A DNA stretch of 50,489 nucleotides from Fulvivirga imtechensis AK7 (GTDB lineage Bacteria; Bacteroidota; Bacteroidia; Cytophagales; Cyclobacteriaceae), in NCBI RefSeq assembly GCF_000331535.1, contig NZ_AMZN01000061.1:1-50489 (forward strand). The letters are read 5' to 3'. The position numbers were made by a program, and so were the translations under genes. Positions 8,307-30,373 of the stretch are shown in pieces. Under the pieces are notes generated by a model. It did not search any database and was not told the origin of the DNA. It saw only the letters and a list, made by a program, of their open reading frames with translations. Numbering within the stretch: position 1 is the first letter of the stretch; the number at the start of each line of letters is the position of its first letter.

Positions 8307-8338
8307 ACTCCCCGAATCTACCGTTTCGCTTGCCCCAT

Positions 8339-8371
8339 ACTTCCGACTTCCGACTCCGGTCTTCCGACTTT
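8339..8371. repeat. ACTTCCG-word array
   Basis: Tandem words ACTTCCGACTTCCGACTCCG are followed by GTCTTCCGACTTT. The array overlaps the stop codon region of the minus-strand gene at 8370. Confidence 0.65.
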
Positions 8372-17293: not shown

Positions 17294-17383
17294 ATCTTTC
17301 TCAAATGGATTTTGGGTTTGCAAAAATAAGAATTTCAAAGATGAAATTTTATCTGTTCGCGATCTTTTACGGCTTTTCTGCTC

Positions 17384-17418
17384 TGTTCTCAGTTCTCAGT
17401 GTGTCCGTTCTCAGTTTT
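17384..17418. repeat. ACTGAGAAC-word array (inverted orientation)
   Basis: TGTTCTCAGTTCTCAGTG is followed by GTCCGTTCTCAGTTTT. Its reverse complement repeats ACTGAGAAC, the same word as at 1071-1109. It fills the spacer between ffh and moeA and abuts the moeA stop at 17420. Confidence 0.65.
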
Positions 17419-19972: not shown

Positions 19973-20210
19973 CTAAGCCATACCAGGCCGGAGATAAATA
20001 GTCGGCAGTTGGCAGAAGCAATAGGCAAAAAAAGAGAGACGTGAGTACCTAGTCGTGAGTCATGAGTAAAAGAGTAAATAACACTGAGTTTATAGTCTCA
20101 GTTAAAAACTTACAGCTTGAAACCTGCGGCTTGTCGCTTAATTCGTAAATCAAAAATCGTAAATCGTAAATTGATTCTCAATACTCAATACTAATATCTC
20201 AATACTAAAT
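19973..20210. repeat. Full-length composite word element (at least five modules)
   Basis: In order it holds: AAGCCATACC; GGCAGT words (19999-20030); GTGAGT words (20039-20068); CAGCTTG words (20108-20141); CGTAAAT words (20141-20173); CTCAATACT words (20175-20210). The element ends 9 bp before the ATG of the small membrane ORF at 20220. Subsets of these modules in the same order precede 523 and 6508. Confidence 0.75.
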
Positions 20211-26508: not shown

Positions 26509-27192
26509 ATGAGTTGGTTCACGAACGCTATGTCCAGCACCCTTGGCAAGAAAGTCATCATGGCTTTAACGGGGTTATTTCTAGTTATTTTTTTAGTAGT
26601 ACACCTTTCAGGAAACCTACAGCTATTACTTGATGATGATGGAAAGGCATTTAATGTTTATGCCAGATTCATGACTTCCAATCCCCTGATAAAAACTACT
26701 TCATTTATATTATATGCCTCCTTTTTAATTCATATCATCTGGGCTGTTATCCTTACCATTAACAACAAAAAAGCCAGGCCTGTTGGTTATGCAAAGACTA
26801 AACCATCTGCCAATAGCACCTGGAGTTCAAGGAATATGGGTTTTCTAGGAACAATAGTTTTTATTTTCCTGGTTATTCATCTGAAGAACTTTTGGTATGT
26901 AATGCACTGGGGACCGATTACAAGCGTCAACTATGACGGCCAGGAATACAGGAATTTATTTGCTACTGTGGAAGCTGTCTTTTCTCAATGGTGGTATGTA
27001 GCACTGTATGTTGTGAGTATGATAGGCTTAATGTTCCACCTATATCATGGTTTTTCGAGCGCCTTCCAAACCTTAGGGCTTAATCATGTAAAGTACAACC
27101 CTGCCATTAAATTTGTTGGCGTAGCTTTCGCAATCATAGTACCGGCCATGTTTGCCGCTATTCCCATTATCATATTTTTGAAAACCTTATAA
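26509..27192 (+). CDS. sdhC: Succinate dehydrogenase cytochrome b subunit
   Basis: This 227-residue inner-membrane subunit anchors SdhA and SdhB and carries two haems b, as in the single-anchor (B. subtilis/Wolinella/Bacteroides FrdC) class. Five membrane helices are visible. Likely haem-ligand histidines are in LVVHLSGN, FLIHIIW, VIHLKNFWYVMHW and MFHLYHGFSSAFQTLG. Having one large cytochrome subunit instead of separate SdhC and SdhD is the norm in Bacteroidota. It is first in the operon with its own promoter, and sdhA follows after 25 bp. Confidence 0.93.
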   Translation: MSWFTNAMSSTLGKKVIMALTGLFLVIFLVVHLSGNLQLLLDDDGKAFNVYARFMTSNPLIKTTSFILYASFLIHIIWAVILTINNKKARPVGYAKTKPSANSTWSSRNMGFLGTIVFIFLVIHLKNFWYVMHWGPITSVNYDGQEYRNLFATVEAVFSQWWYVALYVVSMIGLMFHLYHGFSSAFQTLGLNHVKYNPAIKFVGVAFAIIVPAMFAAIPIIIFLKTL

Positions 27193-27217: not shown

Positions 27218-29152
27218 ATGAAGTTAGATTCTAAAATACCAGAAGGGCCTATAGCTGAGAAATGGGCTAAGCATAAATTCAATATAAAGCTGGTTAACCC
27301 TGCCAATAAACGAAAATATGATATTATCGTAGTAGGTACCGGCCTTGCCGGAGCATCAGCGGCAGCTTCCTTTGGAGAACTTGGCTACAATGTAAAAGCA
27401 TTCTGCTTCCAGGACAGCCCTCGAAGAGCACATAGCATTGCAGCTCAGGGAGGTATTAATGCTGCAAAAAACTATCAAAATGATGGAGACAGCATTTTTA
27501 GGCTGTTTTATGATACTGTAAAAGGTGGTGACTACCGTTCAAGAGAAGCTAATGTGTATCGTTTAGCTGAAGTAAGTGTTGACATCATCGATCAATGTGT
27601 AGCCCAGGGAGTTCCATTTGCCCGTGAATACGGGGGTTTGCTAGCTAACCGTTCGTTTGGGGGTGCGCAGGTTTCCAGAACATTCTATGCCAGGGGCCAA
27701 ACCGGACAGCAGTTGCTACTTGGTGCCTATAGTGCGCTTAGCCGGCAGGTAGCCAATGGTAAGGTGAAGATGTATTCCCGCTATGAAATGCTCGATCTGG
27801 TAATGATCGATGGCAAAGCAAGGGGTATTGTCACCAGAAACCTGATTACAGGAGCCATTGAATCACACAGCGCGCATGCGGTAGTACTGGCAACGGGTGG
27901 TTATGGAAACGTATTCTACCTCTCTACCAATGCTATGGGCTCTAACGCCACTGCAGCATGGAGAGCTCATAAAAAAGGCGCTCTATTTGCAAACCCCTGC
28001 TATACGCAGATCCACCCTACCTGTATTCCCGTTTCAGGCGATCACCAGTCAAAGCTGACTTTGATGTCTGAATCACTCAGAAATGACGGTCGTGTATGGG
28101 TGCCTAAAGATATAGCCGATTCTGAAAAGATCAGAAAAGGACAATTGAAACCAACCGATCTTTCTGAAGATAAAAGGGACTATTACCTCGAAAGAAGGTA
28201 TCCATCTTTCGGTAACCTGGTGCCTCGCGATGTAGCTTCGCGAAATGCCAAATATGTGTGTGATGAGGGCAGAGGAGTAAGCACTACCGGACTGGCAGTA
28301 TATCTTGACTTTGCAGATGCTATAAAAAGAGATGGACGCGCTACCATAGAAGGGAAGTACGGAAATCTTTTCGACATGTACCAGCAGATCACCGGTGATA
28401 ACCCTTATGAGACACCAATGAAGATATACCCTGCAGTACACTATACTATGGGTGGCCTGTGGGTTGATTATAACCTGATGACGAATATCGATGGCTTGTA
28501 TGCTATTGGAGAATGTAACTTCTCAGATCATGGCGCTAACAGGCTTGGGGCCAGCGCTTTGATGCAGGGACTTGCCGATGGTTACTTCGTAATTCCTTAT
28601 ACCATTGGCGACTACCTGGCTACCATGCCGTATGAACGTATCTCTACTGATCATGCAGCCTTTAAAGAAGCTGAGGCAAAAGTGAAGGCCACCAACGAGA
28701 AACTTCTTGGCATCAAAGGAAAGAGAACTGTGGATGAATTTCACAAAGCATTGGGTAATATTATGTGGGAATACTGCGGTATGTCCCGAAACGAAGAAGG
28801 CCTTAAAAAAGCAAAAGTAGAGATACAAAAGTTGCGAGCCGAGTTTTGGGAAGACGTAAATGTGTTCGGCTCCAATGATGAGCTAAATCAGTCTCTGGAA
28901 AAAGCCAATCGCGTTGCGGACTTTTTAGAGCTGGGAGAGCTAATGGTAGATGATGCCTTGAACAGAAGCGAGTCCTGCGGTGGCCACTTCAGGGAAGAAT
29001 CCCAAACAGAGGAAGGTGAAGCCAAGCGAAAAGATGATGAATTCTCTTACGTAGGTGCCTGGGAGTACACTGGTCCTGAAAAACCTGCAGTGCTTCATAA
29101 AGAAGACCTGGCCTTTGAAAATGTAAAACTAACGCAAAGAAGCTATAAGTAA
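27218..29152 (+). CDS. sdhA: Succinate dehydrogenase/fumarate reductase flavoprotein subunit
   Basis: This 644-residue catalytic subunit oxidises succinate to fumarate. The FAD fold is [22 protein letters not shown]. His72 in [15 protein letters not shown] is the residue that binds FAD covalently. Substrate-site blocks are HPTCIP, and [41 protein letters not shown] with the proton-shuttle Arg. The C-terminal part includes [11 protein letters not shown]. The stop is followed one base later by the repeat-flanked S23-like insert, which separates it from sdhB by 471 bp, where relatives normally have them adjacent. Confidence 0.96.
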
Positions 29153-29159
29153 TGTTATC

Positions 29160-29180
29160 GGTTAATGGTTAATCGTTATT
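29160..29180 (+). repeat. Left inverted repeat of the S23 cassette
   Basis: A double GTTAATG word ending in TCGTTATT. It matches the reverse complement of 29561-29581 in 20 of 21 positions. Confidence 0.8.
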
Positions 29181-29185
29181 AGTTA

Positions 29186-29572
29186 ATGGTTAAAATAAAG
29201 ACTTTTGAAGATTTGGAATGCTGGCAGTTATGCACAGAATTGCGCAGGTTAATCTCGGAACTGCTTGCTGATTTCCCCAAAGATGAAAAGTTTTTGTTGA
29301 CAGATCAGATGAAAAGAGCATCCAGATCAGTAACTAACAACATTGCAGAAGGATATGGACGATTTCATTTTCAGGAGAATATTCAATTTTGCAGACAAAG
29401 CAGAGGCTCGTTGTATGAACTTCTTGATCATACAATCATCGCCTTAGACGAAAAGTACGTCACCCAATCAGAGTACGACAAAGTAGTGGAGCAAATTAAT
29501 AGATCTCTGGCTGTCTTGAATGGCTACATTAACTATCTGACACGTGCAAAAAATAACAGTAACAACGATTAA
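29186..29572 (+). CDS. Four-helix-bundle protein (S23 / 23S rRNA intervening-sequence family)
   Basis: This 128-residue all-helical protein has the family signature QMKRASRSVTNNIAEGYGR followed by FCRQSRGSLYELLDHTIIA. The family (TIGR02436 type) was first found in intervening sequences inside 23S rRNA genes. It is structurally close to Avd, the accessory protein of diversity-generating retroelements. It forms ring-like oligomers and binds nucleic acid in the Avd case. Here it sits alone inside the sdhCAB operon, with its start codon next to and its stop codon inside flanking inverted word repeats. It is in frame for co-transcription with sdhA and sdhB. The role is unknown; a DNA- or RNA-binding partner of the repeats is an inference. 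Confidence 0.85.
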   Translation: MVKIKTFEDLECWQLCTELRRLISELLADFPKDEKFLLTDQMKRASRSVTNNIAEGYGRFHFQENIQFCRQSRGSLYELLDHTIIALDEKYVTQSEYDKVVEQINRSLAVLNGYINYLTRAKNNSNND

Positions 29573-29581
29573 CCATTAACC
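29561..29581 (-). repeat. Right inverted repeat of the S23 cassette
   Basis: The plus strand reads AACAACGATTAACCATTAAC plus one C. It contains the gene's stop codon and mirrors 29160-29180 with one mismatch. Confidence 0.8.
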
Positions 29582-29623
29582 AACAACTATTAACGAATTT
29601 ATAAACTATCAACGAATTTCGTG

Positions 29624-30373
29624 ATGAAAATAACACTCAAAGTTTGGAGACAAAAAAATGCTCAGGATAAAGGTGGGCTGAAGACCTATCAGCTAGACGA
29701 TGTATCTCCTGACATGTCTTTCCTTGAAATGTTTGATGTACTGAACGAGCAGCTTGTAAAAAAGGGAGAAGAGCCTGTACACTTCGACCATGACTGCCGT
29801 GAAGGTATCTGTGGAATGTGCAGTATGTACATCAATGGCCAACCTCATGGCCCTAAGCAAACCACTACCTGCCAGCTTCACATGAGAAGTTTTAAAGATG
29901 GCGATACTATTGTAGTAGAACCCTGGAGAGCCCAGGCATTTCCTGTGGTGAAGGACCTGGTGGTGGATCGTACCTCATTTGACAGGATCATTCAGGCTGG
30001 TGGTTATGTATCTGTCAACACAGGCGGAATACCTGATGCCAACGAAATACCCATCCCAAAAAAGATTGCTGATGAGGCTTTCGACTCAGCTACCTGCATT
30101 GCTTGCGGAGCATGTGTTGCTGCCTGCAAAAACGCTTCGGCTATGCTGTTTGTCAGCGCCAAAGTATCTCAGTTGGCACTGCTACCTCAGGGTAAAGTGG
30201 AAAGGAAGAGCAGGGTTGAAAATATGGTAGCTCAAATGGATGCAGAAGGGTTTGGAGCTTGCACCAACACAGGAGCATGCTCAGCAGAGTGCCCAAAAGA
30301 GATCAGCCTGGAAAATATAGCTCGACTAAACCGGGAGTATATCAAAGCTAAATCTAGCTCGGATAATATCTGA
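29624..30373 (+). CDS. sdhB: Succinate dehydrogenase/fumarate reductase iron-sulfur subunit
   Basis: This 249-residue electron-transfer subunit carries three Fe-S clusters. The [2Fe-2S] cysteines are C58, C63, C66 and C83 ([17 protein letters not shown]). The [4Fe-4S] set is C158, C161, C164 ([11 protein letters not shown]). The [3Fe-4S] set uses C168-region and C213, C219, C223 ([11 protein letters not shown]). All are present. ATG 29624 is preferred to the GTG one codon earlier. It is third in the sdh unit, after the S23 insert, and is followed by a strong terminator. Confidence 0.96.

Follow-up and report, generated by a model that had tools for sequence, protein, structure and literature searches.

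Why should a gene for a small four-helix-bundle protein lie between two operon genes that are normally adjacent, with inverted repeats on either side of it? The locus is part of a 50,489-nucleotide stretch of the Fulvivirga imtechensis AK7 genome (contig NZ_AMZN01000061.1; the window), and an earlier sequence-only reading took it to be a mobile cassette made of an S23 gene and inverted word repeats. The surrounding genes, which we take to be sdhC, sdhA and sdhB from a reading of their proteins, and the parts of the inserted unit are as follows.

26509-27192, same direction as sdhA and sdhB: sdhC.
27218..29152, + strand: sdhA, the upstream flank of the inserted unit; the same gene is found in relatives.
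29154..29193, + strand: left heptamer array, with the units GTTATCG, GTTAATG, GTTAATC, GTTATTA, GTTAATG and GTTAA.
29186..29572, + strand: S23/TIGR02436 (PF05635) four-helix-bundle gene of 128 aa, assigned from profile scores, a structural model and structure matches.
29560..29596, - strand: right heptamer array, the word of the left array inverted; it contains the stop codon (29570-29572).
29624..30373, + strand: sdhB, the downstream flank of the inserted unit, matched in relatives.

The S23 unit fills a gap of 471 nt between the end of sdhA (29152) and the ATG of sdhB (29624); the two genes lie 4 and 6 nt apart in two congeners. The 20/21-bp inverted repeat first seen around the gene is real and lies inside longer arms (29154-29181 against 29560-29587; 28 nt, 89% complementary). 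The word repeats described with it are present, but they are not simple terminal repeats: each arm is a short tandem array with a period of 7, built of GTTAATG and its variants, as in the heptamer simple-sequence arrays known from spacers. In the left array the G-rich strand reads towards the S23 gene, whose start ATG lies within the last GTTAATG word of that array (29182-29188) and whose TAA stop (29570-29572) lies inside the right arm, both as originally noted. GTTAATGGTTAA occurs three times in the window, always exactly and always at the S23 locus, where 0.52 occurrences would be expected with at most one mismatch allowed, and none of 100 shuffles reached three. Inverted matches between arms were scored on 350-nt flanks against 1191 cross-locus pairs, for which the 99% quantile is 15.0; the window locus scores 21.5, a value reached by none of these control pairs. 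When the unit is folded as RNA, the arms are predicted to form a terminal stem around the S23 frame (-108.8 kcal/mol; z -2.3, with 1 of 100 shuffles equally stable). These are complementary ends of the kind found in the intervening sequences (IVSs) of 23S rRNA, at a unit that lies outside rRNA, in the sdhA-sdhB spacer.

By profile score the protein belongs to the S23 family, with 104 bits against PF05635 (cut-off 33.8) and 93.2 bits against TIGR02436 (cut-off 24), whereas its score against the Avd profile, 20.9 bits, falls below the cut-off of 80 and places it outside Avd. Its predicted model is a four-helix bundle (pLDDT 97.1) whose best structure matches are, in order, 2gsc (E 3e-7), 2rld (E 0.002) and Avd 4dwl (E 0.012; chain 4dwl_D has a TM-score of 0.89 by target length), with further matches to chains of 8ub7, the ribonucleoprotein of a diversity-generating retroelement (DGR). 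Across 58 diverse S23 members Q41 and E78 never vary, and conservation reaches at least 90% at R44, S48, N52 and E55; these six residues form a highly conserved polar group on helices 2 and 3, which is odd for a supposed mere scaffold. Avd binds RNA, and TRAP, a protein that recognises spaced (G/U)AG triplets, offers a comparison. Structures of S23 proteins have been solved, but to our knowledge no function is known for them. In PMC4990558, the Xanthomonas S23 protein is described as a toroidal homopentamer. At one locus of a relative (L030, G011), the S23 frame does not stop before the downstream heptamer array but enters it, and closes with a repetitive tail rich in N, Q and T.

The genome contains seven matches to TIGR02436. 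The words at its S23 copies are AGTTCTC, AGTTTCC, GGTAATC, GGTTTCT, GTTAATG and GGAAATA, together with the 8-nt unit GGAATGAT at the copy that carries an in-frame stop; the words therefore differ among the seven copies, and do not form the common terminal inverted repeat that marks the copies of an insertion sequence or MITE. The window copy and four other copies score above the 99% quantile, while the remaining two score more weakly: L006 reaches 14.0 (24 of 1191 controls do as well) and has a clear array on the left only, and L007 reaches 10.0 (365 of 1191). The expectation that the genome's other S23 genes would carry word repeats is thus borne out clearly on both sides for four of the six and more weakly for two. 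S23 genes were found in 31 of the 38 relatives searched, two congeners having none at all, and 18 of the 36 S23 loci of this genome and its relatives exceed the 99% control quantile.

The same architecture is found far outside these relatives. From a scan of a named genome collection, the best 80 of 586 confirmed S23 loci were taken, and these include Bacillota, Planctomycetota, Acidobacteriota, Proteobacteria, candidate phyla, two Methanophagales archaea and others; none of the 80 matched rRNA. Seventy of them had nearly full 350-nt flanks and were scored against 4830 cross-locus controls, with the result that 61 of the 70 lie above the 95% quantile, 46 above the 99% quantile and one above the top control, whose own score (48.5) is raised by words that some loci have in common. 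The 70 include a single archaeal locus, L251, which has 8-nt arrays and a score of 16.5; the other of the two falls outside the 70. A larger pool of 171 S23 genes, each with at least 200 nt on either side, was drawn from this genome, its relatives, many phyla and viral contigs (186 frames in 178 of 180 loci, 174 of them with flanks, less 3 duplicates), and retains a few near-identical viral and sister loci. In this pool, stretches with a period of 7 occur 92 times upstream and 97 times downstream, and stretches with a period of 8 occur 17 and 21 times; dinucleotide shuffles yield 0 and 0 in both cases, and other periods are few except for the multiples 14 and 16. Arrays are found on at least one side of 149 of the 171 genes (on both sides of 101, on one side of 48) and 22 genes have none. 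The unit length agrees between left and right in 98 of the 101 two-sided loci when 14 is counted as 7 and 16 as 8: the pairings are 75 of 7x7, 14 of 8x8 and 2 of 9x9, the remainder involving 14 or 16, with no 7x8, and the three discordant loci are 16x7, 6x7 and 7x9. The arrays are also convergent: G exceeds C in 108 of 121 upstream arrays (the reverse holds in 9), and C exceeds G in 113 of 129 downstream arrays (the reverse holds in 15). Open reading frames of at least 100 aa from samples of eight S23-bearing relatives served as a control, spurious overlapping frames included: not one of these 1381 is flanked by 7- or 8-nt arrays left and right, and 39 have one on at least one side, against 89 of the 171 S23 genes (29 of 73 in the relatives alone) with such arrays on both sides.

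Viral contigs and plasmids carry the arrangement as well. The 21 genes from viral contigs in the pool comprise 14 of type 7x7, one 8x8, three one-sided and three arrayless, and phage records gave no match to the 2gsc fragment. Ten of 28 plasmid records with an S23 gene were read, all ten of them cyanobacterial, and eight have period-7 stretches (at least 20/28) on both sides, while the arrays of the Stanieria and Nostoc HK-01 plasmid genes are weak or one-sided. On such plasmids the S23 unit is flanked by cas6 and cas4 in both Anabaena and Pseudanabaena, the words differing between them, and in Nostoc edaphicum it lies antisense between ribonucleotide reductase genes (L413, L419 and L415). With respect to neighbouring genes, 158 of the 171 loci could be placed and 13 could not; 29 are flanked by genes of opposite direction, and between the co-directional genes of the other 129 the S23 gene is sense in 109 and antisense in 20, by a crude assignment of neighbours.

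To describe the arrays themselves, 66 heptamer profiles were rotated to one frame, which revealed a weak common core, [TC]AG[T]NNN, with an information content of 3.11 bits as compared to 2.58-2.64 bits in six sets whose columns were permuted within loci. By a maximal-segment method, the number of units per array has its mode at 4, followed by 5, with few arrays above 15 and a maximum of 34. Unit length is inherited with the protein: on a FastTree protein tree of 165 proteins, 138 of them labelled 7 or 8, it requires 14 changes, as compared to 19-24 in 300 shuffles of the labels, none of which was as low. The words change faster than unit length and follow the protein only among the closest pairs. 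Among gene pairs without a shared flank gene, similar words are found in 0.23 of 40 pairs at 60-80% protein identity (pairs that are not independent, a single viral cluster contributing six of them), in 0.03 of 833 pairs at 50-60% and in 0.02 of 5680 pairs below that. A global code linking protein and word was considered and set aside, as the rank correlation between the two is weak (65 of 500 permutations within relatives reach it, which is not significant, and 2 of 500 in the named genomes) and only the closest pairs share words more often. The nearest relatives of the window S23 protein in the pool outside sdh (L329, L299 and L308; 54-57% identity) occupy other sites, where the words are by eye GGTTAwTG-like and two are in 8-nt arrays.

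In related genomes, two operon junctions occur in both empty and filled states. The sdhA-sdhB junction was read in 30 of the 35 matching genomes. This genome and G004 have it filled by an S23 gene flanked by GTTAATG-type arrays, the start codon in G004 again lying within the left array; G010 has a hairpin of a GTTAATG-type word from which the gene is absent, and G008, G001 and G014 retain a remnant that by eye resembles the right arm. The junction lacks arrays in G007 and G011 (6 and 4 nt), in G003, G005 and G006 (42 nt) and in G009, G012 and G013 (54-73 nt). In G028 the sdhA-sdhB gap (L062) measures 968 nt and contains another open frame. At the second site, a permease-permease junction whose downstream gene is present in 12 of 15 genus members and which was read in all 12, the genes overlap without any insert in G007 and G010, and G000, G001, G004, G009, G011 and G013 carry an S23 gene with related CTGG-containing arrays that begin at the upstream stop codon and extend to or near the downstream start. 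In G014 the first codons of the S23 gene and the right array remain, and in G008 and G012 the spacers are 50 and 227 nt long without S23. The copy in G002 (L334) is of another S23 type and has another word, so that L334 and the G000 copy L331 represent unrelated S23 types with differing words at one operon junction of two congeners; the site may be a hotspot, or the elements may replace one another. These empty, filled and eroded states indicate that the arrays come and go with the gene, and thus that gene and arrays behave as one inserted unit that sits in spacers, as the sequence-only reading had held, and lies mostly in sense. That reading's prediction that an empty site would have a single copy of the word failed, since the empty sites at both junctions carry none. 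In a protein tree the two sdh S23 copies pair with support of 82/83, and the permease-site copies of G000 and G001 split from the other four (90/99) in agreement with the sdhAB tree; the branching among those four is not resolved, and the tree program flagged long branches. Judged from these trees, both insertions would fit old, inherited units that were repeatedly lost. No recent S23 jump was seen at the two junctions and no target-site duplication is evident there, both insertions being old.

Parts of this arrangement have been described separately. According to PMC4990558, the 23S rRNA IVSs of Coxiella and Leptospira contain an S23 frame, are distributed sporadically and, as the Coxiella IVS illustrates, are bordered by complementary, stem-forming ends, features shared by the units described here; IVSs are cut by RNase III and have been called selfish or parasitic. 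However, the window copy is located between protein genes and its ends are tandem heptamer arrays; elsewhere, none of the best 80 of 586 loci matched rRNA. Heptamer arrays have in turn been reported as GGGAATC in Xanthomonas and GGGGA(C/T)T in Nostoc (PMC4692102) and as TAACTGA in Beggiatoaceae and others (PMC4679880); they share the 7-nt unit and the intergenic position of the window arrays, and although they are known from several phyla, no role has been established for them. In Xanthomonas four units are preferred, and 70 and 75 convergent pairs were counted in two genomes (PMC4692102). What distinguishes the present arrays is that S23 genes are bracketed by arrays of their own word. The main text of PMC4692102 does not contain the terms S23, four helix or 23S rRNA, nor does that of PMC4679880 contain S23 or four helix, though the latter mentions a 29-copy protein, BOGUAY_0693, left unidentified there. 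Both S23 genes and heptamer arrays are thus already published, and we found no paper that ties them together in a search outside which lay most subscription papers and all bioRxiv preprints. The Avd proteins of DGRs (PDB 4dwl and 8ub7) have the same fold as the window S23 model, but the window protein lies below the Avd cut-off and its locus is devoid of a reverse transcriptase. Insertion sequences and MITEs likewise have inverted ends and are short units in spacers, but the ends of the S23 unit vary from copy to copy, no target duplication is evident at the two old junctions and the unit contains no transposase, recombinase or reverse transcriptase gene. The S23 unit resembles an IVS in its anatomy, but it differs from an IVS in not lying in rRNA, from an insertion sequence in ends that differ by copy and from a DGR in having no reverse transcriptase.

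We consider it somewhat probable (roughly 0.55 for the reading as a whole) that the window locus is one copy of a widespread, compact, IVS-like selfish element that consists of a single S23 gene and two convergent arrays, its ends being mostly runs of 4 or 5 heptamers, with octamers or nonamers in some cases, which have the weak core [TC]AG[T] in common and otherwise a word private to the lineage. Several parts of this reading are direct observations: the architecture and its generality, the agreement of word and unit length between left and right, the tie of unit length to the protein tree, the joint presence and loss of arrays and gene at two operon junctions, and the sense bias within operons. 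Binding and movement are the parts we infer. The S23 ring may bind the G-rich strand of the arrays, in the DNA or RNA of the element, with one protomer per heptamer, as suggested by the fixed unit, a number of units close to that of the ring protomers, the shared core and the fold of a protein with an RNA partner. Counted against this explanation are the 22 arrayless and 48 one-sided genes among the 171, and the commonest array size of 4 rather than 5 units. In the polycistronic transcript the arms would form a paired stem that leaves the S23 frame looped out, by analogy with the 23S rRNA IVS; such a stem could allow the insertion to be tolerated and the frame to be expressed by read-through. 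Together, the stem and the sense bias favour a role at the level of RNA, for example tolerance by excision. Movement would require host replication or repair, as the unit encodes neither a recombinase nor a reverse transcriptase. How one private word is maintained in two inverted arrays that lie some 370 bp from each other is a puzzle, for which gene conversion or template switching between the inverted arms are candidates. Copying of one arm from the opposite arm unit by unit was dropped from consideration: unit order is not mirrored between the arms (mean score 18.1 against 17.3 with the right-arm order permuted, only 1 of 89 loci falling below 0.05), and base-pairing has therefore left no visible unit-by-unit mark on them.

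Could the arrays have come first? Polymerase slippage, an idea cited for heptamers in Rehm 2015, may generate intergenic heptamer arrays, and S23 genes would then merely settle in or between them. Arrays without the gene, which the sequence-only reading overlooked, are indeed common in this genome: with a pattern made to fit the L001 and L002 words there are 504 matches, as compared to 0 when that pattern is reversed, and the window word gives 135 against 14 for its control, overlapping matches of a single array being counted several times in both 504 and 135. Among the 60 overlapping loci from these searches, only the window's own contains an S23 frame, and as matches without the gene far outnumber S23 genes the arrays may have another cause. 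The gene-less hairpin at the sdh junction of G010 and the lack of unit-by-unit mirroring also accord with slippage. In the element reading, S23-less arrays of element words would be remnants or non-autonomous copies. Several results oppose the priority of arrays. Empty junctions are arrayless (permease in G007 and G010, sdh in G011 and G007); convergent arrays whose unit length agrees in 98 of 101 loci are not predicted by independent slippage, which also leaves the 8x8 and 9x9 pairs unaccounted for; and not one of the 1381 other open reading frames is bracketed. A census of 200-kb samples without an S23 hit by tblastn (198 kb for G010) included four of the seven S23-free relatives, and these are almost without arrays: period-7 arrays number 0, 1, 0 and 0 in G005, G006, G031 and G035, the single one being AT-rich, as compared to 1, 0, 4, 10, 0, 1, 2 and 8 in the S23-bearing G003, G014, G011, G000, G033, G010, G032 and G015, where one of the G011 arrays is AT-rich and the single G010 array flanks an S23 gene just beyond the sample. 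The totals are 1 array in 800 kb against 26 in 1,598 kb, and a stricter census gives, in the same orders, 0, 1, 0 and 0 against 0 (plus 2 of period 8), 0, 2, 6, 0, 1, 1 and 9. As G033 (7 S23 genes) and G014 (2) have no array in the 200 kb sampled, the link between arrays and S23 holds in sum and not in each genome. We therefore regard the priority of arrays as rather unlikely. As separate observations, L368, L389 and L392 are long S23-less arrays in which several heptamer words follow one another in a single run, and the window itself contains S23-less arrays at 489-523, 1007-1041, 1072-1105, 8336-8370, 17381-17416 and 20135-20210, with the words CTCAATA, GAACTGA, ACTTCCG, GTTCTCA and TAAATCG; those at 489 and 20177 lie just 5' of an ATG.

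It is also conceivable that the S23 protein has been domesticated as a regulator that binds its own flanking arrays in the mRNA and tunes the host operon, an old insertion being kept for its use. Vertical inheritance would fit both sites, and the sense bias (109 to 20), the position of the start codon inside the left array, seen in G004 as well as here, and the stable predicted terminal stem all agree with such a role. Yet the unit was repeatedly lost or eroded and, at one junction, an unrelated S23 occurs; two congeners do entirely without the gene, and only 117 of 6670 locus pairs share a flank gene. These facts make domestication an unlikely account of the locus. Least probable is a retroelement satellite, in which an Avd-like S23 protein would work with a reverse transcriptase in trans (the sequence-only reading had suggested that a reverse transcriptase or recombinase elsewhere may move the unit) and repeated priming in reverse transcription would produce the arrays: the fold and weak sequence relation to Avd, the fixed-unit repeats at both ends and the sense bias speak for it, but RVT_1 does not track S23, with one short match in this genome (75 positions in a 152-residue frame on another contig, C6), none in seven S23-rich relatives (G002, G004, G010, G016, G020, G022 and G032) and 7 and 3 matches in the S23-free G005 and G006.

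Returning to the proposed selfish element, the link between S23 and the arrays provides the ring protein and the fixed-unit repeat with a testable partner each. A bolder extension, which we put forward as possible though doubtful, unites the S23 genes of bacteria and archaea in one element class: the pentameric ring would measure the end arrays and fix their unit at 7, 8 or 9 nt, and the words would be generated or kept uniform by the element itself. On this view the unexplained heptamer arrays in Xanthomonas, cyanobacteria and Bacteroidota would be traces that the element left behind, rRNA would be one of the places where it lands, and the rRNA IVSs might become one case of a broader element. 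If the known rRNA IVSs share such arms, they would join the S23 class. A minor observation concerns L219 (1491-2456), where two S23 genes that are 73% identical lie in tandem, the first with a 7-nt array upstream and the second with 9-nt arrays on both sides.
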